From the IMG/VR virus record IMGVR_UViG_3300025313_000023, positions 1 to 50,058 of that record: a DNA stretch of 50,058 nucleotides; one strand, given 5' to 3'. Under the pieces are notes generated by a model. It did not search any database and was not told the DNA's origin. It saw only the letters and a program-made list of their open reading frames with translations. The stretch's first letter is position 1, and each line of letters begins with the position of its first letter. The stretch comes from a virus. The position numbers and the translations under genes were made by a program. Shown here piece by piece: positions 12,251-46,980 of the stretch.

Positions 12251-12271
12251 TGCCCTGACCACGCCGCTCGG

Positions 12272-12288
12272 TTCCCGACGGTCGGGAA
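12272..12288. repeat. Dispersed palindrome TTCCCGACGGTCGGGAA
   Basis: Perfect 7-bp arms around CGG. The same core TCCCGAC(N)GTCGGGA also lies at 642-656, 17451-17465 and, without the central base, at 40363-40376. This is the only copy in an intergenic gap. It could be a hairpin in RNA or a protein site. Confidence 0.6.
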
Positions 12289-12329
12289 TGGGGCGGCCGG
12301 CGAGCGCACCAGCTCGGAGGAGAGACGCG

Positions 12330-13130
12330 ATGGACGAGGGCAAAGAGATCATCCCGGCGGAGCAGGTCTACCTCGGAACGATTACAGTACCACCCGAGCA
12401 GGTCGTGGCTACCGCGACCCGCGTGGCGACGGCACTCAAGAAAGTCATCGACGACCGCAAACTCTTCAGCGTCATTCAGGGCGGCAAGCATGTGCATGTC
12501 GACGGATGGACCACCCTCGGCGCCATGCTCGGTGTCCTCCCTCGAGAGGTATCGGCCGAGAGGCAGGAGGATGGCGGCTATGTCGCCACGGTCGAGCTCG
12601 TGAGGGTCTCAGATGGGATGGTGATCGGACGGGCCTCGTCCCTCTGCGGCATGGACGAGGTGGATCGGAGCGGGAAGGCGTCATGGGGATCGAAGCCGGA
12701 GTATGCCCGCCGATCAATGGCCGTCACCCGCGCGACCGGCAAGGCCTACCGCCTCGGCTTCGCCTGGATCATGGAACTCGCCGGTTATAAGACCACGCCG
12801 GCTGAGGAGATGTCCTTCGTCGAGGCTCAGTTCCGGGATGAGACGCCGAAGCCCGCCGTGACGGAGGAGTCTGCGGCCGCACAGCCAGGTTGGCTCGAGG
12901 TCCTGACCGCCAAGGACGAGGCCTGGCTGATCGAGAAGAAGATCATCCCGCCAGGCCAGAAGCGCCAGCATGTCGCATCGCTCCTCGACCTGCTCTTCAA
13001 GCCAGGTGAGGATTTCAAGAACGAGCGCGGCCTTCTGAAACTCAAGGCCTACCGCGGCGCCCGTGATAGCGGCCTCAAGTCCTTCGAAGCCGCCGCCAAT
13101 GCCAACGCTGCGCTGAAGGATCAGCCGTGA
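12330..13130 (+). CDS. Possible recombination / ssDNA-associated phage protein
   Basis: 266 aa from ATG 12330 after GGAGGAGA. Residues 10-150 contain VHVDGWTTLGAMLGVLP, GMVIGRASSLCGMDE, WGSKPEYARRSMAVTRATGKAYRL and MELAGYKTTPAEEM. This motif string recurs in phage proteins placed near recombination or replication genes, some of which have been related to Rad52-like annealing proteins. The link is tentative. The C-terminal third is helical. Its stop overlaps the next GTG (GTGA). Confidence 0.5.
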   Translation: MDEGKEIIPAEQVYLGTITVPPEQVVATATRVATALKKVIDDRKLFSVIQGGKHVHVDGWTTLGAMLGVLPREVSAERQEDGGYVATVELVRVSDGMVIGRASSLCGMDEVDRSGKASWGSKPEYARRSMAVTRATGKAYRLGFAWIMELAGYKTTPAEEMSFVEAQFRDETPKPAVTEESAAAQPGWLEVLTAKDEAWLIEKKIIPPGQKRQHVASLLDLLFKPGEDFKNERGLLKLKAYRGARDSGLKSFEAAANANAALKDQP

Positions 13131-15758: not shown

Positions 15759-16603
15759 GCATCGAGGCCTGGAAGGCCGTCTTGCACGCGACTGGATTCA
15801 CGCCTACGGAGAAGCTCGTCCTACTGGCTCTCGCCAATCATGCCGACCCCCTCGGAAGACAGATCCGTCCCGGTGTTCCACGTTTGATGGTCTATACCTC
15901 GCTAGCAGAGCGGACCGTTCGCCGCACAATCTCTGATCTTGTCGTTGCCAGCATCTTGCGGCCGGTCGGAGAGAGAAGCCGATATGGATTCGTAGAGTAC
16001 GAGATGGATCTTGGCCAACTGTCAGATGTGGCGTCTCAAGACCTGCAGGACATGCACCTCTCAAAGAGCAACGGGGTGCCAGTCCGTCCCTCCAGGGGTG
16101 CACCTGAGTCCGCCAGGGGTGCACGTGAATCCCGATCTTCCATTAAGGAACCATCAATTAACCATCATCAGGAACCATCATATCCATCCACTCCAGCCGA
16201 GGCCTATTCGGCACGACCAGATGGCAAGCATCAGAAGGCCATTCTGAGAACTGCTCAATTGACATTCCAGGAATGCACGAAAATCACGGAACCATCAATC
16301 GGGACAGATAGCGAACGGAAGGCAGCTGGCCGACGTTGGTGGATTCCACTCCGCCGAATCTGCGAACTCGCCAAATGGGACGGAGAACGAGTCTGTTGGA
16401 TCATCACTGAGGCTGTAAAGCGACTTGATGGAAGGGTGACAATCGCCGCTCCGGGATCGATCCTGGCCACTTGCGAAGGAATTATCGGGGAATCCAACCG
16501 CGGCACGCTGCCCACGGGCACCATGACAAAGGCAGATCGGGACGCCAAAATGCTGTCGGAGCAGGAGCGGTTCCGGCGCCTGAAGAACGGGGAGCGAAAG
16601 TGA
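15755..16603 (+). CDS. Replication initiator (DnaD/O-like) with N-terminal winged helix
   Basis: 282 aa from ATG 15755, coupled to the HNH stop. Residues 14-75 (TPTEKLVLLALANHADPLGR, LMVYTSLAERTVRRTISDL) are the winged HTH typical of phage replisome organisers. A linker with many Ser/Pro/His follows (about 105-150), then a basic helical C-terminus (WWIPLRRICELAKWDGERVC). The downstream gene is a DnaC-like loader, the O/P arrangement. The linker is encoded by the iteron-like repeats described separately, so the gene may contain its own origin as in lambda. Confidence 0.75.
   Translation: MSIEAWKAVLHATGFTPTEKLVLLALANHADPLGRQIRPGVPRLMVYTSLAERTVRRTISDLVVASILRPVGERSRYGFVEYEMDLGQLSDVASQDLQDMHLSKSNGVPVRPSRGAPESARGARESRSSIKEPSINHHQEPSYPSTPAEAYSARPDGKHQKAILRTAQLTFQECTKITEPSIGTDSERKAAGRRWWIPLRRICELAKWDGERVCWIITEAVKRLDGRVTIAAPGSILATCEGIIGESNRGTLPTGTMTKADRDAKMLSEQERFRRLKNGERK
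16070..16187 (+). other. Candidate replication origin: iteron-like repeats plus AT-rich patch
   Basis: CCAGGGGTGCAC occurs at 16092-16103 and 16113-16124, 21 bp apart, with a degenerate copy near 16071. An AT-rich stretch follows, containing GGAACCATCA at 16147-16156 and 16171-16180 and TTAACCATCA at 16158-16167; a further GGAACCATCA lies at 16288-16297. Iterons followed by an AT-rich region inside an initiator gene is the lambda-type origin layout. The call rests on pattern only. Confidence 0.55.
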
Positions 16604-17484
16604 CAACTTGGCCCTGGAACATCGCCGCCATCGCCGACGGGAATCTGATCGGCGCAGAGCTTAGAGCGATTGAAGTGGGAGCTATGGTCGGCTGCCAGCC
16701 GGAGATGGTGCCCGGCGCGTGCACGAACTGCGGCGGACGCGAATTCATGGCGGCCTGGCGGATCGAGATAAATGGCAATCGTCACTATTTCGGTCCAGGA
16801 TGGGGTGACTGGCGACCGGCCAGCTTGCAGACACAGCCATGCCCCGTATGCCAAGGCTCGGTCCGGATGGAGGCGCTCCAAGACATTTCTGGCTTGGGTG
16901 GCCTCGTCCTTGACGGCAAAGCCGCTGGCAGTCTGCGCCTTGATGCTTTCCGCCCAGAGACCGGCCAAGTTGACGCGCTGGAAGCATGCCGACGGCTACT
17001 CGTTGAGCTCCCCAGTCCGCGCACCTGGGCTCTGTTCTTCGGTGGGTACGGAACGGGAAAGACGCATCTGCTATGTTGCTTGGTGAACGCCTGCCTGCTG
17101 ATGGACGTCGCGGCCCGATACACCACCGCAGAGGGCATCCTGCGTAGCCTTCGGGCCACGTTCGATGGGCGGCACGGCACAGAGGCAATTCGCCAGGAAC
17201 TCGAGAACATCCGCGTGCTCGTCGTCGACGAGATCGATCGCGTGAAGCTCAGCGATTGGGCTGGCGAGACCTTATTCGGCATCCTGAATGCACGATACAC
17301 GCACGGCCTCGCGACTTGGTGCGCGACCAACAAGGCACCCAATGAGCTGGAGGCCTCCGAGGTCTATGGAGCCTTGGTAAGCCGTCTCTCCTCTGGCGAG
17401 ATGGTCGCTATCACAGGGGACGACATGCGGCCAATGGCCCAGACACAGCTTCCCGACCGTCGGGATGGAACGGCGGCGGGGTGA
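16600..17484 (+). CDS. DnaC-like helicase loader (AAA+ ATPase)
   Basis: 294 aa from GTG 16600 (GGGGAGCG upstream, GTGA overlap). Two CxxC pairs (41-44 and 81-84) form a zinc-binding N-terminal region. Walker A is GGYGTGKT (148-155), Walker B VLVVDEIDR (D210/E211), and a sensor region ATWCATNKAP follows. This matches DnaC/DnaI-type loaders that deliver host DnaB helicase to the origin. The palindrome TCCCGACCGTCGGGA lies at the very end of the gene (17451-17465). Confidence 0.85.
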   Translation: MTTWPWNIAAIADGNLIGAELRAIEVGAMVGCQPEMVPGACTNCGGREFMAAWRIEINGNRHYFGPGWGDWRPASLQTQPCPVCQGSVRMEALQDISGLGGLVLDGKAAGSLRLDAFRPETGQVDALEACRRLLVELPSPRTWALFFGGYGTGKTHLLCCLVNACLLMDVAARYTTAEGILRSLRATFDGRHGTEAIRQELENIRVLVVDEIDRVKLSDWAGETLFGILNARYTHGLATWCATNKAPNELEASEVYGALVSRLSSGEMVAITGDDMRPMAQTQLPDRRDGTAAG

Positions 17485-24409: not shown

Positions 24410-25645
24410 TCACGAATCAATCAAGCGGAAGTCAATCCTCGGATTCTCAAGGAGCCTGAGTAGGGCGTCCTCATCGGCCTGCCGAAAGTGTAGGAGTACG
24501 ATGTCTCCCTCAGAAACGGGTGCGCCCGCATTTAGGTCGGATGTATCGATGTCCCAGAGATACGGCGTCAGACCATCCTCGCGCGCGAACGTCTCGAATG
24601 CGCGGGTGTCAAGGCCGTAAGGCGGTCGGGCAGCGAAGATGAGACCATCATCAAGCGGGCCCGCCAACTCGATCATCGTTCCGTTCCAGCTTGAAAAATC
24701 ACGACGCCAATCCCCGGCGATCCATAGGCCAATCTCGCCCATGTCTGGGTGATGCATCGTGTGGTAGGCAATCTGATTGCCCTGGCTAATCGCCATCTGA
24801 ATTCGATCTGGCCCCAGAGATTTTGCCGCATCGCCGATGAGGAAGAAGGTCGCGACCGCATTGTGATCTCGGAGCATGGCGAGCATCCGGTCAAAGCTAA
24901 CCACACTCCATCCGTCGTCGATCGTCAGATAGACGGACACGGTTCGTGACGAGATCTTGAAGTCTTGAATGACCCCATCGATTCGCCACCGAGAATTTCC
25001 TAGATAGAGAGGCGCTCGCTCGTAGTGATCCGTGAAATGGACTTGGGAAAGCCACCAGTCTGGATAGTCAACCACCTCGACGGGGCCCTCCTCGCGGAAG
25101 CGAGCTGGGTTCATCTTTGAGATTGTCACGCCATCGATAGGATCATCCATGCTCCAGCGTTCCTTAGTCTCCCAGCTGACCTCGACGACCTCCCGGCGGT
25201 ATTTGACAATGGCATAGATGTCATCGCCCTGCGCGCAATCGACGGTGAGGAATGGCCCTTCCCAGGCCTGTCGGGGACGGAGGATCCAGACTGGCTTTCC
25301 GAGATCCGCGCAGGACATCATGGCCACGCCTCCAACGTAGCCGGGCGTCGCGGGCATCATTCCTGGGGCATACCATACGGCCCGGCCGATACTAACGGGC
25401 GGCGCCGGCGTCATCCAGCTATCGACGGATACCATGCCCGGCACCCAGCCGCCCCACCACCAGTACCCATCGAACTTGTTCTCGTTGTTGCAGATGACGG
25501 CCGCCTGTTCGTAGGGGCATTCATCGCCAGCCGAACCGGGCGTGGTGACGGCCAACATCCAGATGGCGATGCTGATCCCGACCGCAGCTGACATAGCAGA
25601 GCCGAGGGGTCGTTTCGTTTTGTCCTCCCTATGACGGGCTGGCAT
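24410..25645 (-). CDS. Secreted polysaccharide deacetylase (NodB/CE4)
   Basis: 411 aa from ATG 25645 (an in-frame TTG lies 6 bp upstream). Signal/anchor about residues 18-40. Residues 42-235 are a Trp- and Cys-containing region of unknown fold. The NodB domain shows the standard motifs: TIDDG (241-245), HTMHHPD (295-301, the H-x3-H metal site) and RPPYG (340-344). CE4 enzymes remove acetyl groups from peptidoglycan or other glycans. Beside an endolysin it may prepare the wall for lysis or alter the surface. Its promoter lies so close that the mRNA may be leaderless. Confidence 0.8.
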   Translation of the reverse strand: MPARHREDKTKRPLGSAMSAAVGISIAIWMLAVTTPGSAGDECPYEQAAVICNNENKFDGYWWWGGWVPGMVSVDSWMTPAPPVSIGRAVWYAPGMMPATPGYVGGVAMMSCADLGKPVWILRPRQAWEGPFLTVDCAQGDDIYAIVKYRREVVEVSWETKERWSMDDPIDGVTISKMNPARFREEGPVEVVDYPDWWLSQVHFTDHYERAPLYLGNSRWRIDGVIQDFKISSRTVSVYLTIDDGWSVVSFDRMLAMLRDHNAVATFFLIGDAAKSLGPDRIQMAISQGNQIAYHTMHHPDMGEIGLWIAGDWRRDFSSWNGTMIELAGPLDDGLIFAARPPYGLDTRAFETFAREDGLTPYLWDIDTSDLNAGAPVSEGDIVLLHFRQADEDALLRLLENPRIDFRLIDS

Positions 25646-25652
25646 CCTCAAT

Positions 25653-34603: not shown

Positions 34604-35107
34604 TCACGGCCTCGGTAGAGTGGCCGGAAAGCGCTCCACCGCGGATGCGATGGATTCCTCCGAGGGCTCGACGCGCTCGAACACCGCCCGCCTGAGCAGG
34701 AGAAGGTCCTCGAGGTCGGGGAGCAGGATCCGGCTGACGTAGACGACCTTGTCCTCCGCCGGCAGAATGACGGGCGGCGTCTGCCTTCCGGCCCATTCTC
34801 GCAGCTCCTCGACCTGGCGGATCCACATCTCGTCTGGGGGAAGCACGACTCCTCGGTCGATGGCGAAGTCGATCGCCAGGAGGCCGATCCGGTAGTCGTA
34901 GTCGAGCATCTCGGCCTGGTAGGCCGGATGCGCGGGATTCGATTCCATGCGCTTCTGGCCGCCATAGTCGATCTCCTGAGTCGGAGGCAGGGGTGCCTTC
35001 GGATGCGTGGCCCGCCAGTCCTGGACGAGGAGAGTCGGGATCCGCCTCACCTGGAGCGTCAGCCCCAGGTGAGGGAACTCTACAGGCCGCAGGTCACTCG
35101 CGCTCAC
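34604..35107 (-). CDS. Tail-assembly chaperone
   Basis: 167 aa, coupled to the tail-tube stop (ATGA). VEFPHLGLTLQVRRIPTLLVQDW and the acidic, helical middle (YDYRIGLLAIDFAIDRGVVL, EMWIRQVEELREWA) fit G-type chaperones, which coat the tape measure during tail assembly. Position between tail tube and tape measure is canonical. Confidence 0.65.
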   Translation of the reverse strand: MSASDLRPVEFPHLGLTLQVRRIPTLLVQDWRATHPKAPLPPTQEIDYGGQKRMESNPAHPAYQAEMLDYDYRIGLLAIDFAIDRGVVLPPDEMWIRQVEELREWAGRQTPPVILPAEDKVVYVSRILLPDLEDLLLLRRAVFERVEPSEESIASAVERFPATLPRP

Positions 35108-36663
35108 AGAACTCCAGCCTTGCCCAGCAGGACCACACCGTCCGTCCCGTTGGCGGCTAGGCCGACGCAGAGGATGTTGTTGGCATCGATCGCCGCTCCG
35201 GCGTGCGGGACGGCGATGCGATTGATGCGGTCCACGACAGGCCAGTTGATGATCCGGCGGCCGCCGCTGTCCTGGCGGGCCCAGTCTGCTCCACCGTTCC
35301 AGGTGCAGAAGATGCGACCGGTCGGGGTCGCATCGTCGTGGACGAAGAAACCGACCTCTTCCGTGGCGAACACGATGTCCCTAACCTGACCGGCGCCTTC
35401 GCCCGAGAAGTGCTTTTCAGTCCAGCTCGCTCCGCCGTTCAGGGTGTAGTAGACCCGGCCGCATCCCACGCCGCATCCGACCCAGATCTCGTCCTTGCTC
35501 TTGACGGCATGCGAGATGATGTCGACAGCTAGGCCGACGGGCGAATCTGTGGTCGTTCCCCAACTCACACCCCGATCAAGGCTGCGGATCACAGTGTCGC
35601 TGGCGCCGACCGAGACGATGACCTCATCCTTGTCGCCGTCGATCCGGAAGAGATTGGATGTGGTCGCGTCGCCGGCGTCCATGACGCTGACGCCCGCCGT
35701 GATGTCCGTCGATCGGTAGATGTATCCGCCCTCGCCGCAGAAAAAGACCTCACGCGGCGAGAGAACGTACATATCAAGCGGGTCCTTGTTGGCGACGAAG
35801 CCAGTCGTGACCTTGGTGAACGTGCCGGGGATGCCAGTGTCGGCGTCGATCACCGCCCAGTAGTAGGCTCCATCGCCGAGGACCACGACCTTGTCGCCCA
35901 CGATGCCGATGGCCAGCGGATCTTCGGTTGCCCCAAGGCCGCTGATATTGACCTGCGACCAGTTCAGGCCGCTGTCCAGCGTGTAGATCAGTTCGGCTGG
36001 AAGACCGGGCGATCCGCCGCCGCTGGACTTCACGATGACATATGCCTTCTGGGTCCCATCGTCGGCCGGGCCGCAGTTGCCGCATTCAACCTCGGAACCG
36101 AAGACGCCGTCGACCGCTTCGTTGTCGACCTGCGTTGAGGCTTCCTCGGAGATGTTGATCGGACCGACGGGATAGATCTTATCCAGCGTGATGGAGATCG
36201 CGTCCTCGACCTGATTGTCATCCGCCCAGGCCGTGCGCGCTCCCATATCGACCTCGGTCGCCTCGGCCAGGCTGTAGATCTCGACCCAGTCGCCCCAGCC
36301 GTTGAGGAAGTCCGATAGGTCTTGGCATTGACCGCTCAGAAGGTAGACGTTGAACGGACATGGAATCTCGCCGAGTTGCCAGGGCAGGGGCCCGTGCTTC
36401 TCGAGGGCATGGAGCGTGGCTGTCGGGAGAGCCGGTGCCGTGACCTTGCGGCCTACGCTACGGAAGGCCTTGATGCGGAATGGATCCGGAACCTGGATGC
36501 TCTCGATGCCGCCCGAGATCGGACGGGTCACGCCATCGAGCATGAGGTACTGCGCATCTAGGCCTGCATATCGAACTGGATTGTTGGGCGCTGGCCCGCC
36601 CGGCTGCAGGAAGAGACGGCGCGCTTGCTGGGTACTGATCACATCGCCTGAAATCTTGGGCAT
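35104..36663 (-). CDS. Tail tube protein fused to Asp-box (BNR-like) propeller
   Basis: 519 aa. Residues 1-180 have the size and place of a major tail tube subunit (LQPGGPAPNNPVRYAGLDAQ, NGWGDWVEIYSLAEATEVDMGAR). The remaining 330 residues contain Asp-box-type motifs S/T-x-D/N-x-G-x-x-W: TLDSGLNW (228-235), SLDRGVSW (361-368), TLNGGASW (407-414), TWNGGADW (454-461), as in sialidase or Ycf48-like beta-propellers. Such a fold would project from the tail. It has a promoter just upstream. That this is the main tube protein is inferred from gene order. Confidence 0.65.
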   Translation of the reverse strand: MPKISGDVISTQQARRLFLQPGGPAPNNPVRYAGLDAQYLMLDGVTRPISGGIESIQVPDPFRIKAFRSVGRKVTAPALPTATLHALEKHGPLPWQLGEIPCPFNVYLLSGQCQDLSDFLNGWGDWVEIYSLAEATEVDMGARTAWADDNQVEDAISITLDKIYPVGPINISEEASTQVDNEAVDGVFGSEVECGNCGPADDGTQKAYVIVKSSGGGSPGLPAELIYTLDSGLNWSQVNISGLGATEDPLAIGIVGDKVVVLGDGAYYWAVIDADTGIPGTFTKVTTGFVANKDPLDMYVLSPREVFFCGEGGYIYRSTDITAGVSVMDAGDATTSNLFRIDGDKDEVIVSVGASDTVIRSLDRGVSWGTTTDSPVGLAVDIISHAVKSKDEIWVGCGVGCGRVYYTLNGGASWTEKHFSGEGAGQVRDIVFATEEVGFFVHDDATPTGRIFCTWNGGADWARQDSGGRRIINWPVVDRINRIAVPHAGAAIDANNILCVGLAANGTDGVVLLGKAGVL

Positions 36664-36696: not shown

Positions 36697-36706
36697 ATTA
36701 TACAGC
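36697..36706 (-). promoter_or_regulatory. Promoter element upstream of tail tube gene
   Basis: The 11-mer GCTGTATAATC occurs here (36696-36706, minus strand) and upstream of the major capsid gene (47023-47033). The perfect -10 TATAAT contains the stop codon of the connector gene. No clear -35 is visible. Confidence 0.5.
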
Positions 36707-37990
36707 AACGCCTTCTGCAAGGCGCGTCTGTTTCACGAATTTCCAGGCCATCATCTGCCCTCGCTTCGTTCCGAACGGGCTCAGGAGATCCTCCCTCGCC
36801 ACCAATCCGTAGCTCTCATCATTCGCACCGGCGGTCCTGGCCAGGTCGAACTGCCAATGAGCGATCTGGTGCCGGGCCTGCTCACATGCTGGGAGAATGC
36901 GGCCGAGCTCGGCCGCGGCCAGCCGGGCGACAAGCTGCTTCATCGTCGGACTGACCTGCCCGCCCGACAAGGGATAGCCGCTCAGAACCCGGACCGTCAC
37001 ACGGTCCGGCTCCTTGATGGCGCTCCAGCTCGTCGACTCGGACCAGATGCCAGTCGTCGTGTCAAGGATGGCTTCCCCTGGCGTGACGATTCCAAGCCGG
37101 GAGTCTCGGATGCCGACGCGGGCGACGGCCCGGGCCTCGGCTCCAGGATCGGCGAAGCTATTGGGCGGCGTCGTGACAGCGCAGGTGTTGCAGCAGCACC
37201 ACGTCCCATGCTTGGGGAGCGTCTCCCACAGCAGCGCCGCCTGCGATGTATCGGAGACCACGCCGTCCGGATCGATCCAGAGGCGATAGATGTCCAGCAG
37301 CGTCGGAAACTTCGTCGTGTCGGCCGGATCGATGTCCCCAAGATTCGCTGGCTCATAGAGGACAGGCCGGACGAGGAGCCAGCGTTTTCCCCTGATTGTC
37401 GCCGTCCCGCCGCTAATCGTTACCTTCACTGGTCGGATGCGCCAGCGCTCATCCTCAATGCTCGAGCCGTCGAAGCGTTCGGTCGATGTGAAGTAGACGG
37501 CAATCTCGTCCGGGTCCGTGACAGTCGTGGCCACCGAGACCGTGAAGGTGTCATTGAGACTGTCGCCATCCTCGTCGGAGTAGGTGATGGCCGCGCCGAC
37601 GCTGAGAGCCGTGCGCCGCTGATAGCCGAGTTTCTGGATGTAGCCCTTGCCTAGCTGCAGGCCGATCCGGTGCCAAGGAGCGCGGATGTTCGCCACTCGG
37701 ACATCCGAGAGATCGAAGAAGCGCTGCCAACGCTGAGTGATGACCTCATAGCGGGGGGCGACGTTGTAGCCCAGCCACTCCGCAAGTAGTGCCTCGGCCC
37801 GATCGATGGCCTGCTGGATCTCATCGCGCCCGACCGCATCCACGCCCTGCCATGTGTAGCGGCGAAGTATGTCGTTGCAGCTCGATGTGACTGGCAGGTT
37901 CCCGTTCACAAGGCCGTTAAAGTGCCATGGGTGAAGGCCCATGAGCGCGCGAAAGTCGTCGATCGGGAGAAGTGTCTCTGGGCTGTTCAT
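36698..37990 (-). CDS. Head-tail connector-like protein, 430 aa
   Basis: 430 aa. Opening LLPIDDFRALMGLHPWHFNG with NDILRRYTWQGVDAVGRDEI and a helical AIDRAEALLAEWLGYNVAPRY suits adaptor/neck proteins. The centre is beta-rich and includes a Cys cluster (GTWCCCNTCAV near 265). The C-terminal part (SPTMKQLVARLAAAELGRIL) is helical. It lies between head and tail genes. The precise connector type is not clear. Confidence 0.6.
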   Translation of the reverse strand: MNSPETLLPIDDFRALMGLHPWHFNGLVNGNLPVTSSCNDILRRYTWQGVDAVGRDEIQQAIDRAEALLAEWLGYNVAPRYEVITQRWQRFFDLSDVRVANIRAPWHRIGLQLGKGYIQKLGYQRRTALSVGAAITYSDEDGDSLNDTFTVSVATTVTDPDEIAVYFTSTERFDGSSIEDERWRIRPVKVTISGGTATIRGKRWLLVRPVLYEPANLGDIDPADTTKFPTLLDIYRLWIDPDGVVSDTSQAALLWETLPKHGTWCCCNTCAVTTPPNSFADPGAEARAVARVGIRDSRLGIVTPGEAILDTTTGIWSESTSWSAIKEPDRVTVRVLSGYPLSGGQVSPTMKQLVARLAAAELGRILPACEQARHQIAHWQFDLARTAGANDESYGLVAREDLLSPFGTKRGQMMAWKFVKQTRLAEGVAV

Positions 37991-38232
37991 CTGGCCTTCT
38001 TGTTGTCATGTGATGCACGTCTGGCCGGGGACCATTCGTGCTTCGTCATATCATAGGCGGCACGTCTCTCGTCTGACCATCGATGGGCCGCCTTATCGTA
38101 TGCGATCCGTCGCTTGGATGTCCATTTGTGGTCACTCCCCTCATAGGTGGCCCACCTCTTGACTGACCAAGGTTTGCCCTTTCGGTCCACTAGCGCATAG
38201 ACGATGGATCGCCTTTGGGGTCCGCTAGCCAT
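37987..38232 (-). CDS. Small protein with four WSxxRRxAYD-type repeats
   Basis: 81 aa from ATG 38232. After VYALVDRKGK there are four tandem units of about 16 residues: WSVKRWATYEGSDH, WTSKRRIAYDKAAH, WSDERRAAYDMTKH, WSPARRASHD. Trp and the Arg pair are invariant. Very basic, so probably nucleic-acid binding. The N-terminal VYALVD resembles a GIY start, so it could be a trimmed homing endonuclease that kept only its DNA-binding repeats. Coupled to the connector gene by ATGA. Confidence 0.6.
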   Translation of the reverse strand: MASGPQRRSIVYALVDRKGKPWSVKRWATYEGSDHKWTSKRRIAYDKAAHRWSDERRAAYDMTKHEWSPARRASHDNKKAR

Positions 38233-38518
38233 TGCCAGCTCTATGCGCGACGAGGATCCCGCCGGCGATGCCGCCCCAGACAAGCAGGAAGTCAATCAGC
38301 GGCGGCGCGGCGGATAGGGCGACGATGGCGGCTGGCAACGAGATCCAGAACGAGAGGCATAGCACGCACCGAAGGCCCCGGCCGACCCAGCTATTCTGGT
38401 CGACGCGCTCACGGAGGTTGGCCAGAACATCGAAAGGTCCATCCTCTCTGGCGATGGCGAACGCAAGACGATAGGAGGCGAGCCCAGCGAGGATCAGCCG
38501 CAGTGTCTCAGTCAACAT
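38225..38518 (-). CDS. DUF1360-like membrane protein
   Basis: 97 aa. RLILAGLASYRLAFAIAREDGPFDVLANLRERV followed by GLRCVLCLSFWISLPAAI and a second hydrophobic part is the DUF1360 pattern (CxxC next to SFW). Two membrane spans. It overlaps the repeat protein by 8 bp. Common in phage head-tail regions; function unknown. Confidence 0.65.
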   Translation of the reverse strand: MLTETLRLILAGLASYRLAFAIAREDGPFDVLANLRERVDQNSWVGRGLRCVLCLSFWISLPAAIVALSAAPPLIDFLLVWGGIAGGILVAHRAGNG

Positions 38519-38717: not shown

Positions 38718-41153
38718 CTACGCTGCGACCGCCTTGCGCCGCTTGCGGGCCGCCTTCCGTTTGACGGGCGCCTTCGCCTCCGCCTTCGGCTTCTGGCCAT
38801 TGTTCAAGACGCCTTCAAGGACGATGGACAGCCCGACGGCCTCAGCCTCGGGCGGGATCGTCTCGATCTTGGGCACGATCGGCGCTGGCGGCATCGGCCG
38901 GACGGGAACTGCTTCTACGACCCTCCAAAGGCCAAGCCGGACGAGTCTCGTGACGTCGTCCGGATGGACGCTGGCGAACTTGTGAACTGGGTTGTTGCCG
39001 CCCCGATACATCCGGCCTTCGGCCCCGTGGTAGGTGACGGCGCCGCTCCGTGTGCCGACGAACTCCATCCTCACCCAGCCAGTCGATCCCTCGCGCACGG
39101 CCGTGGCCGGCAGGGGGAGATCAGTCCCTTCGACGGCCTGGCGTGCGACGTTCTGGTCCCCCTTACCGTCTCCGCAGCCTCCACCACATCCCATCGGATT
39201 CTCCTTCAGTTTGGACTTCGGACCCAGCCTGCCTTCGGCCAGGATACGGAGTTCGCTCTCAAGCATGTCGGGCAGGAGCGCCTCGCCTGCCTTGACATCG
39301 ACCGTGAAGCGGCCACGCGCTTCCGTTGGTTCCTTCGGCGCGACCTGTCGCACGAAAGGATACACCCGAAGGACCTCGGCGGAAAGTGCTGGCGTGACCG
39401 CGATAGCCTCCCATGCCCTCACTGTCTGGCCCAGGATGTCCTCGAGCGTCTCCTTCCAGTCGCTCTCGATGCGTCCGTGAATGAGGAGCGACACGACTGG
39501 ATCAGCGTAGCTCATCACGTCCGGCATGTCGCTCGCCGGCGCTCCCATTGGATAGCGGTCGTCTCGCATCCAGGGGTGATGCTCGTCCGTGGCAACATAC
39601 TTCTTCATGCGGGAGGCCGATTTGCTGTGCGCCCGGTAGAGGAAGAGCCTGTGGTCGCTGGCGCGTTTGGCCCGGAAGCCAACCGAGAGGCCGCGCGTCC
39701 AGAACTCAGCATCCTCACCCGGGGCGTAGTGCTGCTCGTAGCCGCCAGCGCGCTCCCACATCGATCGACGGAACATAGCCGCGGAGGGAACGCAGTTGGA
39801 GGGCGGGACAGTCGCTTTGGACTGGATCTTCCAGTCGAATGGCGGCGGCCAGTTGTACCACTCGACCCGCTGGTTCTCCTCGTAGTGGACCTCGAGGCCC
39901 GTGTAGACGATCCCGAGCCCTCGGTCCCGCTGCATCTCCTTCGTGCAGGCCTCGAGATAGCGGGAGGCAAGGCGGTCGTCTGCGTCGAGGCAGACGATCA
40001 GGGGGGACTTGGCTTCGGCGATGCCATTGTTCCTGGCAGCTGCCACGCCCTGATTGGCCTGCCAGATGTAACGGACCTTGGAATGATGCTCCGCCAGTCG
40101 GCGCCCGACCGCCTCGCTATCGTCCGTGGATCCATCGTCAACGATGATGATCTCAGACGCCGGCACTGTCTGGGCCAGGACGCTCTCGACGCATTCGATC
40201 AGATAACGGCCGTAGTTGAAGCACGGGATGATGACCGCGACGGCCTCGCCCTTCTCGAAGGCCAGGCGAGCGGCATACGCCGCCCGATAGATTTCGGCAT
40301 AGCGCGCGGCGACCCGATCCCAGGTGAATTCCCTCGCCCTCTCCCGAGCGTTGTGGCCCAAATCCCGACGTCGGGAAGCGACCCAGTCCACCGCGGCGTT
40401 CAGGCCCTCGATGTCCCCCGGCTGGACAAGGAAGCCGTCGATCTCATGGCGCACGATGTCGGCCGTCCCGCCCCAGCGATAGCCGAGCACAGGCACGCCA
40501 GCCGCCATCGCCTCAAGCGTCCCGAGCCCAAAGGTCTCCCGTGTCGTCGCCAAGTAGATGTCGGCCTTGGCGACCATGCTCATCATCTCGTTCCACGGTA
40601 TGGAACCCGTCACCCACATATTTCCCGGGATGTCGGCCGCGCTGTGCGGAGCGAAGGTCGAGATCACCTGCCGACCGCGGCGGGCCAGCTCGAGCGCCGG
40701 TGTCGGATCGCAGACATCCTGCGCCCGGTTCTTGTTCCAGAGGATGTAGCCTCCGTTCACGTCCTCGACGAAGCGCTCGGCTTCGATCCCGTGGGGAACG
40801 ACATCTGGGCTGATACGCATGTCCCGCTTGAAGGGCTCGGCGACCCATTCGCTCGGGACCGTCACCCTGAAGGCCTGTCGGGTGGCCTCGATGATGGAGG
40901 CGTTAGCCTGCTGGTGCCAGCTGGCATATTGAGCATGATGAATATCCTGGAAATATAAGCCGTGGCACCCGAGGACGTCCACCCTCGGCATGTTGCCCTG
41001 CTGCGTATGGCAGAAGATCAAATCGGCCTCGTCTGGATTGTCAGTTACCTCAATGCCGACCTGCGGGAGATACCGATACTGTGCATGGACAACCCGCCCG
41101 ATGCCGCTCGACAACTGGCTCCCACTCGGCGATGGCCAGATGCAAACCCTCAC
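38718..41153 (-). CDS. Dual glycosyltransferase (GT4-like plus GT2)
   Basis: 811 aa from GTG 41153. Residues 1-300 form a GT4/GT1-type transferase (SSGIGRVVHAQYRYLPQVGI, VPSEWVAEPFKR, TRETFGLGTLEAMAAGVPVL with its conserved E-x7-E). Residues about 312-540 form a GT2 domain (AVIIPCFNYGRYLIECVESV, IIIVDDGSTDDSE, VCLDADDR). Later parts include a Cys-rich GCGGGCGDG loop, a module with RMYRGGNNPVHKFASVHPDD and a very basic C-terminus (KRKAARKRRKAVAA). Two GTs in one chain could build a disaccharide on a virion protein. Confidence 0.8.
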   Translation of the reverse strand: MRVCIWPSPSGSQLSSGIGRVVHAQYRYLPQVGIEVTDNPDEADLIFCHTQQGNMPRVDVLGCHGLYFQDIHHAQYASWHQQANASIIEATRQAFRVTVPSEWVAEPFKRDMRISPDVVPHGIEAERFVEDVNGGYILWNKNRAQDVCDPTPALELARRGRQVISTFAPHSAADIPGNMWVTGSIPWNEMMSMVAKADIYLATTRETFGLGTLEAMAAGVPVLGYRWGGTADIVRHEIDGFLVQPGDIEGLNAAVDWVASRRRDLGHNARERAREFTWDRVAARYAEIYRAAYAARLAFEKGEAVAVIIPCFNYGRYLIECVESVLAQTVPASEIIIVDDGSTDDSEAVGRRLAEHHSKVRYIWQANQGVAAARNNGIAEAKSPLIVCLDADDRLASRYLEACTKEMQRDRGLGIVYTGLEVHYEENQRVEWYNWPPPFDWKIQSKATVPPSNCVPSAAMFRRSMWERAGGYEQHYAPGEDAEFWTRGLSVGFRAKRASDHRLFLYRAHSKSASRMKKYVATDEHHPWMRDDRYPMGAPASDMPDVMSYADPVVSLLIHGRIESDWKETLEDILGQTVRAWEAIAVTPALSAEVLRVYPFVRQVAPKEPTEARGRFTVDVKAGEALLPDMLESELRILAEGRLGPKSKLKENPMGCGGGCGDGKGDQNVARQAVEGTDLPLPATAVREGSTGWVRMEFVGTRSGAVTYHGAEGRMYRGGNNPVHKFASVHPDDVTRLVRLGLWRVVEAVPVRPMPPAPIVPKIETIPPEAEAVGLSIVLEGVLNNGQKPKAEAKAPVKRKAARKRRKAVAA

Positions 41154-41163
41154 GCTTCACCAG

Positions 41164-41178
41164 CGATTGTGCTATATT
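41164..41178 (+). promoter_or_regulatory. Extended -10 promoter of antisense HNH gene
   Basis: CGATTGTGC-TATATT: TG-C plus -10 TATATT at 41173-41178, start expected near 41185, only about 10 nt before the ATG. No -35. Shares CGATTGTGC with the portal promoter and the early promoter. Confidence 0.5.
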
Positions 41179-41194
41179 TACATGGGCGATAGAC

Positions 41195-41884
41195 ATGAGA
41201 CGGGGAAGGATCGTCGAGTGTGCAAGGTGTCGAAGAGTGCGTCGGAATAATGGCCACGGACTGTGTTCCTCCTGTTTCGCGGCTTGGAATCGAAAACGGA
41301 CGACGCCGGGCTTCGTCTGTGGGCGATGCCATAGGGCGGGCCACCATGAAGCCAGAGGCCTTTGTGTCTCCTGCTACCGATCTGTTTATCAGACCGCTCA
41401 TCTTGCGCAGCATGCGAGCTATGAGCGCCAACGAAGGCGCGAGCAGAGTGCCCATATCAGGGAGCTTGAGAAGCGCCGGGCCAGAACCGATAGCCGCCGC
41501 GCCTGGAAGAAGGCTTACGGTCGCGCGTATTACGTGATCAACAAGACGCGGCTTCAGGCCTACAATCGTGCCTGGCTCCGCGCGCATCGTGAACAGATGA
41601 ACCACTACTCCGCGGTATATAGCACGCGAAAGCTCGGCTTGCCTCATACCCTTTCCATCTCTGAATGGAATGCCATCCTCGATCACTTTGATCACCGTTG
41701 CGCCTACTGTGGCAGGAAGGCTCGCAGGCTCTGTCGCGAGCACGCAATCCCAGTCAGCCGAGGTGGCGGCTATACGGCCGATAACATCGTGCCCGCGTGC
41801 GGATCCTGCAATTCGAGGAAGCATAACAAGACGCCAGAAGAGTTCGCCGCGTATCTCAAACTCCATCCTGAACCATTTGGCTAG
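41195..41884 (+). CDS. HNH homing endonuclease with zinc fingers, antisense to operon
   Basis: 229 aa from ATG 41195. Two zinc fingers (CARCRRVRRNNGHGLCSSC and CGRCHRAGHHEARGLCVSC, residues 9-60), a basic helical linker, and an HNH domain (CAYCG, EHAIPVSRGGGY, NIVPACGSCNSRK, about 177-215). It is the only rightward gene in a 22-kb leftward block and has its own promoter, as expected for a mobile endonuclease inserted between two operon genes. Confidence 0.85.
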   Translation: MRRGRIVECARCRRVRRNNGHGLCSSCFAAWNRKRTTPGFVCGRCHRAGHHEARGLCVSCYRSVYQTAHLAQHASYERQRRREQSAHIRELEKRRARTDSRRAWKKAYGRAYYVINKTRLQAYNRAWLRAHREQMNHYSAVYSTRKLGLPHTLSISEWNAILDHFDHRCAYCGRKARRLCREHAIPVSRGGGYTADNIVPACGSCNSRKHNKTPEEFAAYLKLHPEPFG

Positions 41885-41889
41885 CTTGC

Positions 41890-42474
41890 TCACAGGAAGA
41901 GTCCCGATCCAGCGGGGCCAGCGCCGCGCTTGAAGGCCGCCGTGATGGATACGATGCCGACAGCCTCCCAGTCGGGGTCGGTCTCAATCAGGTCTCGGAC
42001 AACACCCTTCACGTCGCCCCAGGGAGCGTTGTCATAGTCATGGAAAACGAGGAAGCCGCCCGTCCGGATGTGCTGGCCCCACGCCCGCACGTCGCCCGAG
42101 CAGCCTTCGTAGGAGTGATCCCCGTCGATGAAAACGAGGTCGACTGGCCCGCCTTCCCATGTGCGCCCGACCTCCTTCGAGTCTCCGTGGATCTGGATGT
42201 GCCGCCCGAGGCCCCACAGCCCGGCGGCCTCAAGGGCATTTCGCTCGCTCTGGAGACCCCCTAGCGGGGACGCATCGGCCTGTATATCTACTGTAATCAC
42301 GTTCAGATCGTCCCGGGCTTCTAGGAATGCTAGGCAGGAGGTTCCCGCCCCCGCCCCGATGTTCACGATCTTGGCCCGCGGCGGCAGTTGGCGGGCCAAG
42401 TCCTGCAGGAACTCGACCTCTCCGTCCAGCAGATAATGGAACGCTGCCCGAACGTCCTGGGCGGCATGGCTCAT
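41890..42474 (-). CDS. SAM methyltransferase (Methyltransf_24 type)
   Basis: 194 aa from ATG 42474 (ATGA overlap). KIVNIGAGAGTSCLAFLE is the SAM site, VITVDIQADA the acidic strand end, VDLVFIDGDHSYEG the family-typical motif. Such enzymes often methylate sugars. It is coupled to the FkbM gene. Confidence 0.8.
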   Translation of the reverse strand: MSHAAQDVRAAFHYLLDGEVEFLQDLARQLPPRAKIVNIGAGAGTSCLAFLEARDDLNVITVDIQADASPLGGLQSERNALEAAGLWGLGRHIQIHGDSKEVGRTWEGGPVDLVFIDGDHSYEGCSGDVRAWGQHIRTGGFLVFHDYDNAPWGDVKGVVRDLIETDPDWEAVGIVSITAAFKRGAGPAGSGLFL

Positions 42475-43184
42475 GGATTTCTCTCCTTCGGGAAGAGTAG
42501 CCAATTGTTCGGGTTGCCACCGTCGAGAACCAGATGATCATAGCCCCAGACCTCGATCAGGTCGGCCACGTCCTGCATGGAGTGGGCACGCCAGGCAAGC
42601 GCGTGATTGACCTCCGAGATGATGAACGGCCTATGTTCCTTCACGATCTCTGCCGCGCCCACCAGCGCCTCCAGGTCCCAGCCGTCCACGTCCGTCTTGA
42701 TCAGATCGACGCGCGGCCAATGCTGGCAGATGGCGTCGATCGTCGTGAAAGTGTAGCGCCCTGGCGTCCGGCCTTGGTCAGCGCCCCTGCCCGTTAGCCA
42801 GAGCGTCTCATCGGCCACTCCCTGAACTGCTCCGACCGCCATCTGCAGGACCGTCGGCTCTATCATCTTCCATCCGCCAGCGACCGCCATGATGTTGTGC
42901 CAGATGTTCACCCGCAGCTTGGCCGCCGTATGCACCGATGCCTCGACGCCGACGACATGGCCATCATGGGCCAGCCGCGAGAGGAGGATCGTGTAGTAGC
43001 CGACGTGGGCACCGACATCGAGGCACCACCAATCAGGCTTGACGTGATCGGCCATCCAACGCTCGGTCTCGCGCTCGGCCGTCTGGTAGGTCCCGTTCTC
43101 AGCGTATTCCGGATAGAAGTCGATCAGTTCCGTCATGCGTCCGTCGGCTGCCATCCGTTGAATGATCAGCGCGGGGAGCGTCAT
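42471..43184 (-). CDS. FkbM-family methyltransferase
   Basis: 237 aa from ATG 43184 (ATGA overlap). WWCLDVGAHVGYYTILLSRL (SAM motif I), VVGVEASVHTAAKLRVNI, and DLIKTDVDGWDLEALVGA near 185-200 are FkbM hallmarks. The family O-methylates hydroxyls of sugars or small molecules. Confidence 0.85.
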   Translation of the reverse strand: MTLPALIIQRMAADGRMTELIDFYPEYAENGTYQTAERETERWMADHVKPDWWCLDVGAHVGYYTILLSRLAHDGHVVGVEASVHTAAKLRVNIWHNIMAVAGGWKMIEPTVLQMAVGAVQGVADETLWLTGRGADQGRTPGRYTFTTIDAICQHWPRVDLIKTDVDGWDLEALVGAAEIVKEHRPFIISEVNHALAWRAHSMQDVADLIEVWGYDHLVLDGGNPNNWLLFPKERNP

Positions 43185-43723
43185 GCCCACGGTTCCTTCC
43201 CGGGCGGGCACTGGTAGCCACGGACGAGAACCATCTTCATCTGCTCATCCTTCTTGTCATGCCATCGGAAGTCGAATGGCTCGAAATCCCCGCGGCACCA
43301 GGCGCTTCGATGGATCTCGGTCTCATAGCCGCCAACGGCGAACTGGGGCACCCCCACGGGAAACACCGCCATCAGGACGTGACAGCGATGGACGGCCTCA
43401 TGCAGGAGATCAAGGCCATCGCTCTTGGTGAGGTGTTCTAGGAAATCGCCGAAGATCACCACGTCGGTCAGATAATCTCTCGACCTGGCAAAGAATCCCT
43501 GCGCCCACTCCTGAAAGACATGGTCGTAGATGCTGCGGAGATTGAACTGCTCGACGTAGTCGGGCTCGACCTCGACGGCGCTGACGACGGCCCCGGGCTT
43601 GACCGCCTTGATCATCCGCCCGTACTTCCCAGATCCGGCGCCGAAGTCAAGGAACCGGAGGTAGGGCCAAGAGGCGATCATGTCAGCGATCTCGGCATCG
43701 AAGGCAGTGGAACTGCTCGGCAT
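43181..43723 (-). CDS. SAM methyltransferase, 180 aa
   Basis: RFLDFGAGSGKYGRMIKAV (motif I), VSAVEVEPDYVEQF (motif II) and DVVIFGDFLEHLTKSDGLDLL are class I methyltransferase motifs. Short and compact. 1-bp overlap upstream, 4-bp downstream. Confidence 0.8.
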   Translation of the reverse strand: MPSSSTAFDAEIADMIASWPYLRFLDFGAGSGKYGRMIKAVKPGAVVSAVEVEPDYVEQFNLRSIYDHVFQEWAQGFFARSRDYLTDVVIFGDFLEHLTKSDGLDLLHEAVHRCHVLMAVFPVGVPQFAVGGYETEIHRSAWCRGDFEPFDFRWHDKKDEQMKMVLVRGYQCPPGKEPWA

Positions 43724-44595
43724 CAGAGGACCACCACGCCCGCCATCATCTTGGCGATGATCTCATCCCAGTCAGGCGGCCCGAGACCTTCGAAGATCAG
43801 ATGCTGGTTCGCTCGGTCGCCGGCGGCCCGCACCGTCTCAAGCAGGGCGGGATAATTGTTGGCATCCCCGACCCCGATGTCATGCACGCCATACTTCTCC
43901 CGCCAGAAGGTCGCCGCCGCCTCTATTGCGTGACCTGCCCGGTCCGCTCGCTCATTCGTGACCGGGTCGCTGGCCGGCCGGAAGCCGTGCCGATAGTACG
44001 CCTGCTTCCCTATGATGGCAACGCTCGGCCTCTTGAGCAGGACCCGGACGCGGTGCTGATACTCCACCTCTGTGAAGTAGGTCAGCGGTGCCGTCGGAAG
44101 GCTGTCCGGAAGGCCAGCGTCCAGAACGACATCCCACGGAATGAACAGCGAATTCCCGTCTAGCCAGCCCATCTCAAGCGTGTCGCCCACGCGCTCCTGG
44201 ATCTGGCCCGGCATGTCCTCATAGTTGTGGGAGCTGCTGTTGAAGGTGGCGACCCCAAAGCCGGTCTCGAGCTGGGCCCGGTCAAGTTCGCCAAGAAGGT
44301 CGGCGCTCTCGGCCGTGAATTCCAGGTCGTCATCGCAGGAGCAGAGATAGGCAGGCTCCATGCCCTCCCGCATTGCGTAGAGCGCGGCGATCGCCCGACA
44401 TGCATAGCTGTTGTTGATCGGCGAGACGAGAGAGGCGAACTCGCTCATGGACGATAGATCCTCGATCTCGCTCCTGATCGGACCACACAGGACGAGCTCA
44501 CAGCGGCCGCGGATGCGCCCGATGCTGTTGGCCATCGTCCGGGCGTGCTCGACGGAGCGATATGTGGAGGCCGTGAAGAGGATGTCGAGGCTCAT
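43723..44595 (-). CDS. GT-A glycosyltransferase-like protein
   Basis: 290 aa. DILFTASTYRSVEHARTMANS at the start, LVSPINNSYACRAIAALYAMREG and a metal-site triad YLCSCDDDLEF (about 83-93) suit GT2-type glycosyltransferases. ATGA-coupled to the gene upstream. Donor and acceptor unknown. Confidence 0.7.
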   Translation of the reverse strand: MSLDILFTASTYRSVEHARTMANSIGRIRGRCELVLCGPIRSEIEDLSSMSEFASLVSPINNSYACRAIAALYAMREGMEPAYLCSCDDDLEFTAESADLLGELDRAQLETGFGVATFNSSSHNYEDMPGQIQERVGDTLEMGWLDGNSLFIPWDVVLDAGLPDSLPTAPLTYFTEVEYQHRVRVLLKRPSVAIIGKQAYYRHGFRPASDPVTNERADRAGHAIEAAATFWREKYGVHDIGVGDANNYPALLETVRAAGDRANQHLIFEGLGPPDWDEIIAKMMAGVVVL

Positions 44596-45332
44596 GCCGG
44601 TTCGACCATGCTAGGTTCGATCAGCCCGAGCTTGAGGAGTTCAGCGGTATCGGCCGCCGTGAGCTGGACTGGCGGATACTGCCAAAGGCCCTTCACGCTC
44701 GCCCGGCCCTGGCGGATCCCGATGACGTAGCGCACCGGGGCCTGGCGCGTTCCGAGGACTTCGAAGCGATCATCATTGGCAATCTCTGCGCTTCCTCGCC
44801 CTTCGAACATCCACGGAGACTCGCCCGGCCGCAGGACTTCCAACAGGATGTCGCGCTTCCAGATCGCCGCTTGCAGGCTCACCTTGTAGGGTGCCGTCGC
44901 CGGTGCCTTGATGATGTCCAGGAAGGCGAGGTACGCAACGTCCACAGCCCCCCGCTCGTTCGCTCGGTCGAGCGTCAGGTCAAGGCGCAGAAGACGCGGC
45001 CGCTTCATCGCCCAGTCCGCCAGGACGTCGACGATCGGCCACGAAGCCTGGCGCATCAGCCAGTAATCCGAGAGCAGGAGAGCGAAGACATCGGCTGGCC
45101 TGTGCCCGCCCTTCAGCCATCCGATGAGAGCGTCCGACCAGCGATCAATGGGATAGTCGGCCTGCTCCCCAATGCTTAGGAAGGTCCACAGCGGCGGCAG
45201 GTCGAAGTCCGGTGGACTGAACCCCAGGACGGTGACCGGACGGTCCTGGCCGCCATGCTTACGGAAGAGATGCGCGCAGACCCGGACCGTCCATAGGTCC
45301 CGATCGCTCGTGAGCACGAAGGTTTCAAGCAT
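44592..45332 (-). CDS. Glycosyltransferase-like protein, 246 aa
   Basis: FVLTSDRDLWTVRVCAHLFRKH at the start, FALLLSDYWLMRQASWPIVDVLADWA, and KVSLQAAIWKRDILLEVLRPGESPWMFEGRG resemble a GT-A-like family found with glycan genes in phages and bacteria; the C-terminal 60 residues are a separate small domain. First full gene after the capsid gene, starting inside the 26-aa frame. Confidence 0.6.
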   Translation of the reverse strand: MLETFVLTSDRDLWTVRVCAHLFRKHGGQDRPVTVLGFSPPDFDLPPLWTFLSIGEQADYPIDRWSDALIGWLKGGHRPADVFALLLSDYWLMRQASWPIVDVLADWAMKRPRLLRLDLTLDRANERGAVDVAYLAFLDIIKAPATAPYKVSLQAAIWKRDILLEVLRPGESPWMFEGRGSAEIANDDRFEVLGTRQAPVRYVIGIRQGRASVKGLWQYPPVQLTAADTAELLKLGLIEPSMVEPA

Positions 45333-45405
45333 CGGGGAAGTTCAGCACGCCATCCGTCGACTCGTCGATGATGGCGTGCTTTCCGCGTGGGAGTTCGATT
45401 TCCAT
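45325..45405 (-). CDS. 26-residue leader-like peptide
   Basis: ATG 45405 follows AGGAGGA at correct spacing and encodes MEIELPRGKHAIIDESTDGV plus FPDA-type end, 26 residues; its stop overlaps the next gene's start. The N-terminal motif resembles the opening of AP2/HNH endonucleases, so it may be a remnant, or a coupling peptide for the glycan operon. Confidence 0.45.
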   Translation of the reverse strand: MEIELPRGKHAIIDESTDGVLNFPDA

Positions 45406-45516: not shown

Positions 45517-46980
45517 TCAGGCCGTCGGCGAGTAGTACGAAAGATCAAGCGCGTCTCGGTTGGTGCCTCCACCGTCGACGTAGTAGCTGTTGTCGGTGAA
45601 CGGGCTCCGCTCATGGCCGACGCTGCAGAACTTCACGTCGTCGATGCGCGCCGCGAGGTGCGGCGTCTCAAGGATGGTCCGCCACTCAGTCTTGGCGAGC
45701 AGCTGGACGCAGAAGTTCGTGGGCGGCTTGGCGTGCCAGAGGTAGCGCCCACCGTTGGTGGTGAAGTACGAGCCGGTGGGGGCGAGTACCTTGGCGGCAT
45801 CCATCGCCGCGCCGGGCCCGTCGTAGTTGAAGTATTCGAGGAAGCTGACGGGCCGGCCGCCGAGGACGGTCAGAGGGACGAAGTAGATGTCGCTCTGCTG
45901 GCAGGAGCCGACCAGCTCGGTCTCGGGGATCCCGTCGTCCAGCACGACCGGGAACTTCACACCGTCGACGAGCAGGTACTGGTTCGCCCGCATGTCGTCG
46001 CGCATCTCGTTCATGCGCCCGACATCGATATTACCCTGGACGTTCGTTCCGGCCACCGAGCATCGGTAGCTCTCATAGCTGCAGGGCCAGAACTCGGTGA
46101 TCTCCCAGAAGAGACCCCAGGTCATGGCGAAGACCCAGTTGACTGGCGAGAGGCCAGCGCGGTCGGCGATGTAACGGCGGTTGCGGACCACGTTCGTGAT
46201 CAGCCGCAGGAACTCGGTCTCGTTGCCGCTCAGGAACTTGTTGAAGGTCCGGACATCCGAATCGGCGGCCGGGCAGGCAACGCCGGTCTCGGCGTCACGA
46301 TAGCCGTCGTTGATCAGGATGTCGAGGCCGTAGGGCTCCTTGTAGCCCTGGTCGAGGTTGTTGGTCGGGTTGCCGGTGTAGAGCTGGTCGGCGAAGTCAC
46401 GACCCCACGCCACGGCCATCTCGAAGAGCGCCTTGGCGAGCTCGTTCCGGAGAGCTGCGTCCGGGCTTGCTCCGCCCGGCATCGTCGGGATCCAGAAGTT
46501 CATCCCGGCCGCCAGGGGATCGCCGATCAACTGCAGATCAGTGAAATCCGAGCGGTCACGGACGCGGCCGAAGCGGTCGAGTTCGAAGACCCGGCTCATG
46601 CGGCTGAAGCGGCCCCAGACGAAAGCATGCGTACACATCTTCATCAGGCCAGCGACGGGCGGGTCGATGCAGGGCCCGGTCGGCTCTTCTCCCGAGGAGG
46701 CCGTCACGCCCGTCATCAGGCCGTAGAGCGGATTGTCTGTGTTGGCCGTGCGGCTCGGCAGGAGGTCGAGCAGGCCGAGCTTCGGCATGACCATCGCGTT
46801 GATCACGTCGCGTTCGAGGCCGGGGAAGGAGAAGGCTCCCGCCTGTCCGTAGATCCCGCCGTGACCGTACACGGTCGTCGGTGTCGAGCTAACAGCCTTG
46901 TGACGCGCTCCGCCGGCCTGCGCGCCGATCTGGCCAATCAACTGTGCGGCGAGCTTCTGATAATCAATCGTTGCTTCCAC
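45517..46980 (-). CDS. Major capsid protein
   Basis: 487 aa from GTG 46980 (GGGAGGA upstream). Beta/alpha mix with VINAMVMPKLGLLDLLPSRT early and a C-terminal NFCVQLLAKTEWRTILETPHLAARI, as in large HK97-fold capsids. Directly after protease/scaffold gene and with its own promoter motif. Longer than the usual 300-400 aa, so it may have an inserted domain. Confidence 0.8.
   Translation of the reverse strand: MEATIDYQKLAAQLIGQIGAQAGGARHKAVSSTPTTVYGHGGIYGQAGAFSFPGLERDVINAMVMPKLGLLDLLPSRTANTDNPLYGLMTGVTASSGEEPTGPCIDPPVAGLMKMCTHAFVWGRFSRMSRVFELDRFGRVRDRSDFTDLQLIGDPLAAGMNFWIPTMPGGASPDAALRNELAKALFEMAVAWGRDFADQLYTGNPTNNLDQGYKEPYGLDILINDGYRDAETGVACPAADSDVRTFNKFLSGNETEFLRLITNVVRNRRYIADRAGLSPVNWVFAMTWGLFWEITEFWPCSYESYRCSVAGTNVQGNIDVGRMNEMRDDMRANQYLLVDGVKFPVVLDDGIPETELVGSCQQSDIYFVPLTVLGGRPVSFLEYFNYDGPGAAMDAAKVLAPTGSYFTTNGGRYLWHAKPPTNFCVQLLAKTEWRTILETPHLAARIDDVKFCSVGHERSPFTDNSYYVDGGGTNRDALDLSYYSPTA

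Follow-up and report, generated by a model that had tools for sequence, protein, structure and literature searches.

Freeman et al. 2023 reportedly found virion glycosylation in the mycobacteriophages Che8, Corndog and Myrna. In phage lambda, C and Nu3 are nested in one frame: the C-terminal part of the enzyme is also made alone, from an internal start, and it targets the enzyme to the prohead. As described in the available text of the papers concerned, phage-encoded glycosyltransferases (GTs) decorate capsid and tail-tube proteins in Che8, Corndog and Myrna (PMC12363180, PMC11256854), lambda C, Nu3 and the portal form an initiator (PMC3224144), and the GTs in a hypervariable island of the pelagimyophage structural region are read as modifying the host surface (PMC7029224). 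Phage-encoded glycosylation is also touched on in the available portions of PMC10568470 and PMC13313380. Virion glycosylation has been shown for few phages, and the route by which the enzymes reach the particle is not described in these partial sources. Here, we analyse an island of GT and methyltransferase genes that lies behind the capsid gene in the IMG/VR virus record IMGVR_UViG_3300025313_000023, the whole 50,058 nucleotides (nt) of which are called the window below.

Like Che8 and Corndog, the window encodes its own GTs. In an F1-cluster phage, however, the GT genes are located towards the 3′ genome end (PMC11256854), and the accessible parts of the mycobacteriophage literature describe neither a fixed place behind the capsid gene nor fusion to a head-region protein. 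A tblastn search with the 811-residue (aa) terminal GT of the island matched 118 phage records, none covering 80% of it, with no mycobacteriophage among the matches listed. The likeness to lambda C/Nu3 consists of a second in-frame start with a ribosome-binding site and a short product that can stand alone, whereas the enzyme here is a glycosyltransferase rather than a protease, and the short protein is encoded behind the capsid gene; this is an analogy of arrangement, and no sequence relation is claimed. The pelagimyophages also have a variable, GT-bearing island among their structural genes, but they are T4-like, their island lies between VrlC and gp14 together with tail fibres, and no fusion of a GT to a head protein is described in the available part of that paper (PMC7029224). 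The Gtr modules for O-antigen conversion resemble the island in their GT2 domain, but the island of the window has neither transmembrane (TM)-like segments nor a recognised flippase. Searches of the open-licence literature turned up no account of a GT fused to a putative head protein with an internal start and this cassette position.

The reading that we favour, with a probability of roughly 0.55, is that the island enzymes glycosylate the phage's own particle, the last GT being tethered through a short protein of the head region. An earlier note on this DNA had proposed a virion-directed glycan pathway in the structural region, and this is borne out in part: it is the best-supported reading because of the fixed position between capsid and connector in relatives, the sugar-nucleotide genes in those same cassettes, the lack of membrane segments in the island enzymes, and the fusion of the last GT to a short protein still present in a phage with no GT2 match. 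The features on which the argument turns are as follows:

45517..46980, minus strand: predicted major capsid protein (HK97 fold; AlphaFold model and Foldseek search of the PDB), left border of the cassette
38718..41153, minus strand: terminal glycosyltransferase (811 aa) with a GT4 domain, a GT2 domain, a degenerate second GT2 domain and the short protein in frame
38718..39194, minus strand: nested gene for a short Cys-motif protein (158 aa), with an internal ATG and AAGGAG 6 nt upstream
36698..37990, minus strand: conserved protein of the structural region, likened to a connector from its position only and used as the right border; no match in phage records

Related loci (L003-L108) were collected with the capsid or the connector-region protein (36698-37990) as the only bait and with no GT bait, the sole exception being L002, which was found with the 290-aa protein of the island. 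The capsid loci comprised 83 that were non-redundant at 95% identity; 47 had both borders, and the 36 without a recognised right border were excluded. A homologue of the terminal GT lay between capsid and connector in 46 of the 47 bordered loci, within an interval of 682–9,560 nt (median 6,358 nt). That the cassette returns so often at one and the same position is far beyond chance. The contents vary: PF00535 was present in 28 of the 30 records first examined, GT4 in 12 and PF13578 in eight, while FkbM was found in the near-copy of the window and in 2 of 29 other records. Outside the window there were 60 domain matches, of which 38 were located between both anchors and 15 more in loci missing one anchor. 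Of 50 records, 20 carried sugar epimerases and 14 carried DegT aminotransferases, the window having neither; 25 of 28 epimerase matches and 12 of 15 DegT matches fell within the interval, the remainder at other places or in a locus lacking the capsid anchor. The smallest GT-bearing form consists of the GT2 with the short protein and one further conserved protein (alignment A8), the L005 member of which gave no family match. We take the island to be an exchangeable cassette for glycan synthesis, fixed in position and variable in content, that belongs to a poorly known clade of uncultivated tailed phages and is inserted between the capsid gene and a small gene of the presumed head region.

Placement of the sugars on the bases of the phage DNA would agree with the general ability of phage GTs to act on DNA and with the PHROG name, “DNA methyltransferase”, for the relative of the PF13578 protein. 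No base-modifying enzyme was found among the scanned proteins of the window (not every open reading frame (ORF) was scanned), and the location of the cassette among structural genes and the NDP-sugar genes of relatives also speak against DNA as the substrate, which we consider very improbable.

None of the six island proteins has a TM-like segment, and only 9 of 220 interval proteins have one. Pfam and PHROG scans recognised no flippase-like gene in the island, and no membrane-bound GtrA/GtrB/Gtr set was found there. These results bear on the view that the enzymes modify the host surface (O-antigen or capsule) and thereby block superinfection, their place among structural genes being incidental. 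The same role is argued for the GTs of the pelagimyophage island in the available part of PMC7029224, and the GT2 part of the terminal gene matches the PHROG models for “GtrB-like O-antigen conversion” with E 2e-11. Besides the scarcity of membrane segments and the missing flippase, however, host-surface modification leaves unexplained why the GT should be fused in frame with a short protein that outlives it, and we judge it unlikely, although it is the chief competitor.

The terminal GTs of the relatives, roughly 300 to 1,040 aa long, carry at their C-terminal end, in frame, the short protein, which is laid out as a start codon with a Cys motif, a small conserved domain and then a tail. The tails are basic, helix-hairpin-helix (PF14520) or E3-binding (PF02817), some are Thr-rich (L007, L017 and L018), and that of the window is rich in Lys, Arg and Ala. 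Removal of entries whose short parts shared >90% identity reduced the 63 fused ORFs to 50, and the internal start codons of these were chosen without Shine-Dalgarno (SD) information, giving 44 ATG, three GTG and three TTG. An SD core of at least 4 nt preceded 48 of the 50 starts, and one of at least 5 nt preceded 38. (The start of L009 was set by hand to Met797, the automatic pick being another Met; otherwise, the counts are 47 and 37 of 50.) At the other in-frame ATGs of the same genes, the corresponding numbers were 92 and 20 of 742. Since Lys, Glu, Gly and Arg abound in the upstream peptides, a synonymous-codon shuffle was used as the null; it led to expectations of 30.6 (at least 4 nt) and 12.0 ± 2.4 (at least 5 nt), and the observed 48 and 38 were not attained in any of 1,000 shuffles. 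Only 4.7% of 4,435 windows matched for Lys, Glu, Gly and Arg reached 5 nt. The SD core was found in all three codon phases, which indicates that the nucleotides are kept rather than the peptide. Judged by these comparisons, the internal start site of the short protein is under selection. The in-frame fusion itself is evident from the reading frames, and the terminal gene appears to be two genes in one, specifying the long GT with the short protein as well as the short protein alone; both products are presumably made. L011 encodes the short protein twice (12196-12510 and 12510-12995): fused to the GT, and again as a separate copy immediately behind it.

A further 26 GT-homologous ORFs lacked the motif and included small separate GTs, ORFs cut at contig ends and full-length unfused ORFs. 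The full-length unfused GTs are those of L030, L069, L081, L084 and L089 (with its near-copy L090), and a separate short ORF follows the GT in L030, L069, L081 and L089. Such separate genes, in five non-redundant loci, would be expected if the fusion were a passive relic of a stop codon lost between two neighbouring genes or a device for translational coupling, the internal start serving the short gene alone and the GT gaining nothing from the tail; overlap in one frame couples translation at little cost. The 50 non-redundant fused loci, however, are spread across a capsid tree that is deep and in which the state changes only three times, and we think it improbable, though far from negligible, that the GT does not profit from the fusion.

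The short protein also exists without the enzyme. In L097, a 48.6-kb record with no PF00535, epimerase or DegT match, the gene order is capsid, short protein, a homologue of the small protein encoded at 38225..38518 and connector, with no GT. Its short protein retains the Cys motif and an SD, and begins with a Met 58 nt behind the capsid stop. In the capsid tree (midpoint-rooted, with a long-branch warning for other parts of the tree), L097 is the sister of the fused L015 with support of 100/99, which makes loss of the GT with retention of the short protein the simplest history. The comparison of relatives for joint loss of the island that the earlier note had suggested thus finds its case in L097, which is without the whole cassette. 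The short product can stand alone both there and in L030, where it is a separate ORF.

As to what the short protein might be, weak matches were found across 33 whole records to phrog_748 (“head-tail connector”), in one place in each of three records, and to DUF7302, in four. Six of the seven fall inside the short domain (phrog_748 in the window, L043 and L088; DUF7302 in the window, L026 and L043), while the seventh, a DUF7302 match over 18 positions, lies elsewhere in the L010 record. No match to phrog_748 or DUF7302 exceeded the family threshold. The clustering is a hint that the short protein may be a small protein of the head-tail connector type. Alternatively, the short protein could itself be the acceptor, through its Cys motif or a Thr/Pro-rich linker, and be mounted on the head thereafter. 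This would fit the Cys motif with which the short proteins start and the Thr-rich tails of three of them, but the motif is kept in L097, which has no GT, and is missing in L069 and L089, which do, and the Lys/Arg/Ala-rich tail of the window does not fit; self-glycosylation of this kind is distinctly unlikely.

If the enzymes do act on the phage's own particle, transcription would run past the capsid gene into the cassette, and the cassette enzymes would build and transfer a sugar that is probably methylated here and deoxy or amino in relatives. The short protein would be a component of the head region that takes a few GT-tagged copies to the assembling head, and the capsid or neighbouring proteins would be glycosylated in place. 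Most copies would be free short protein made from the internal start, a ratio that is presumed. We infer a virion protein as the target, tethering of the GT, a location of the short protein in the head and an action of the methyltransferases on the glycan. More speculatively, the GT might be a minority, N-terminally extended head component that is carried into the procapsid, much as the protease of lambda is through the Nu3 domain, and that puts sugars on the shell during assembly, and interchangeable cassettes might serve to switch the serotype of the virion; this is possible, but we would sooner doubt it than rely on it.

Several points weigh against glycosylation of the phage's own particle. 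The long and short products and the glycan are predictions, known here from the genes; in the window, the operon is broken by a gene for an HNH endonuclease (see below); and phage glycosyltransferases often modify host surface glycans. The head label of the short domain is below threshold (E 0.061 in PHROGs and 0.0095 in Pfam), and a synonymous test based on duplex energy, made on the initial 23 loci, fell short of significance (Fisher p 0.059). Finally, the GT and the short gene are apart in the five non-redundant loci noted above, so that fusion is not essential. If the favoured reading is true, it would provide a concrete mechanism of targeting, with a natural case of loss in L097, and a reason to seek sugar on the heads of environmental phages, for which evasion of animal antibodies is an unlikely purpose of a head sugar.

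The other genes of the island and its surroundings are the following:

45325..45405, minus strand: 26-codon ORF with a very strong SD and an 8-nt overlap with the beginning of the GT-like gene (from sequence)
44592..45332, minus strand: predicted GT-A-fold glycosyltransferase (AlphaFold and Foldseek)
43723..44595, minus strand: 290-aa protein with a DDD motif only (from sequence)
43181..43723, minus strand: class I methyltransferase, weak (PF08242, E 9e-5, below the Pfam cut-off)
42471..43184, minus strand: FkbM-type methyltransferase (PF05050, E 6e-11); ATG start (43184) with SD
41890..42474, minus strand: methyltransferase (PF13578, E 3e-17); ATG start (42474) with SD
41195..41884, plus strand: HNH endonuclease (PF01844, E 1e-10)
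38225..38518, minus strand: small protein weakly similar to DUF1360/phrog_781, with two TM-like segments, following the terminal GT in many relatives
35104-36663, minus strand: propeller-like protein (PF14870 just below the cut-off)

The earlier note had listed a GT-like gene, a GT-A gene, two class I methyltransferases, an FkbM gene and a GT4-GT2 fusion, mostly joined by overlaps of 1–4 base pairs and starting directly after the capsid gene. The GT4-GT2, FkbM and PF13578 assignments are well above cut-off (PF00534 (GT4) E 5e-18 and PF00535 (GT2) E 1e-33 for the terminal gene; 43.3 bits for PF05050 against a cut-off of 22.7), while the third methyltransferase is below that of Pfam. The product of the GT-like gene at 44592-45332 had no Pfam or PHROG match but folds, in an AlphaFold model with a pLDDT of 86, as a GT-A glycosyltransferase, the best Foldseek matches being CHSY3-CHPF1, POMGNT1 and GT6 enzymes (E 2e-6 to 6e-5, TM-score to the query mostly 0.4–0.5); homologues are found directly behind the capsid gene in several relatives, such as L004, L006, L031 and L041. 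No tool supports the GT-A label on 43723-44595; Pfam, PHROGs, the glycosyltransferase sequences of the PDB and phage records yielded no match to its 290-aa product. A PDB sequence match of this protein to a tape-measure protein was at chance level (E 0.32) and was rejected.

The overlaps hold for the four junctions upstream of the HNH gene (4, 1, 4 and 4 nt, using the SD-bearing ATGs 43184 and 42474). Beyond them, with that gene on the opposite strand in between, 736 nt lie between the methyltransferases and the GT4-GT2 gene. The HNH gene, possibly a homing element, had been overlooked, as had the composite nature of the last gene and its degenerate second GT2 domain, which in the window has lost the DxD and acidic-pair motifs that the 11 aligned relatives recognisably retain. 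A 247-aa minus-strand ORF at 41150-41893 was rejected as a shadow of the HNH gene. Between the capsid stop (45517) and the first GT gene lie 111 nt and the 26-codon ORF; the boundary given as 45405 is the start of this ORF, and was corrected, since the GT-like gene starts at 45332. Junctions of the relatives were inspected by eye only. Within the first 100 nt behind the capsid stop, a hairpin with z < −2 was found in 57 of 80 loci compared to 10 of 80 in the control. Some of these hairpins carry terminator-like U-runs, as though expression were to be lowered past the capsid gene. The hairpin in the window (z −1.1) was not significant and was therefore not used. The remaining proposals of the earlier note, namely the capsid or the propeller protein as acceptor, O-methylation of the sugars and late expression, stay at the level of suggestion, and no result points specifically to the propeller-like protein as the sugar acceptor. 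In most of the bordered relatives, a homologue of this protein is encoded behind the connector.

The ends of the window share a direct repeat of ~130 nt, and a near-identical contig spans both ends; the window is therefore, in all likelihood, the complete genome of an uncultivated phage. The structural genes on the minus strand are arranged in the order terminase, portal, a 653-aa protein, capsid, the island and then tail genes. The capsid had no match in Pfam, PHROGs (in a scan that included 15 relatives) or PDB sequences, and profiles of the capsid, the short protein and the GT-like protein likewise gave no matches among PDB sequences. Neither the capsid nor the connector-region protein had relatives among 50,697 phage records. 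The assignment of the former as an HK97-fold capsid protein rests on the AlphaFold model (mean pLDDT 65.5), for which Foldseek returned 237 matches with E ≤ 0.001 (best E 9e-9), the best of them mostly to phage major capsid proteins with the HK97 fold. As for the host, two scans of genome contigs gave no confirmed relative, and there is no tRNA gene in the window. In the tail region, a polysaccharide deacetylase (24410-25651, minus strand; PF01522, E 8e-15) possibly makes contact with host glycans. On the plus strand, a DnaA/IstB-type ATPase (16471-17484; PF00308, PF01695) is encoded behind a helix-turn-helix protein, and likely belongs to a replication module.

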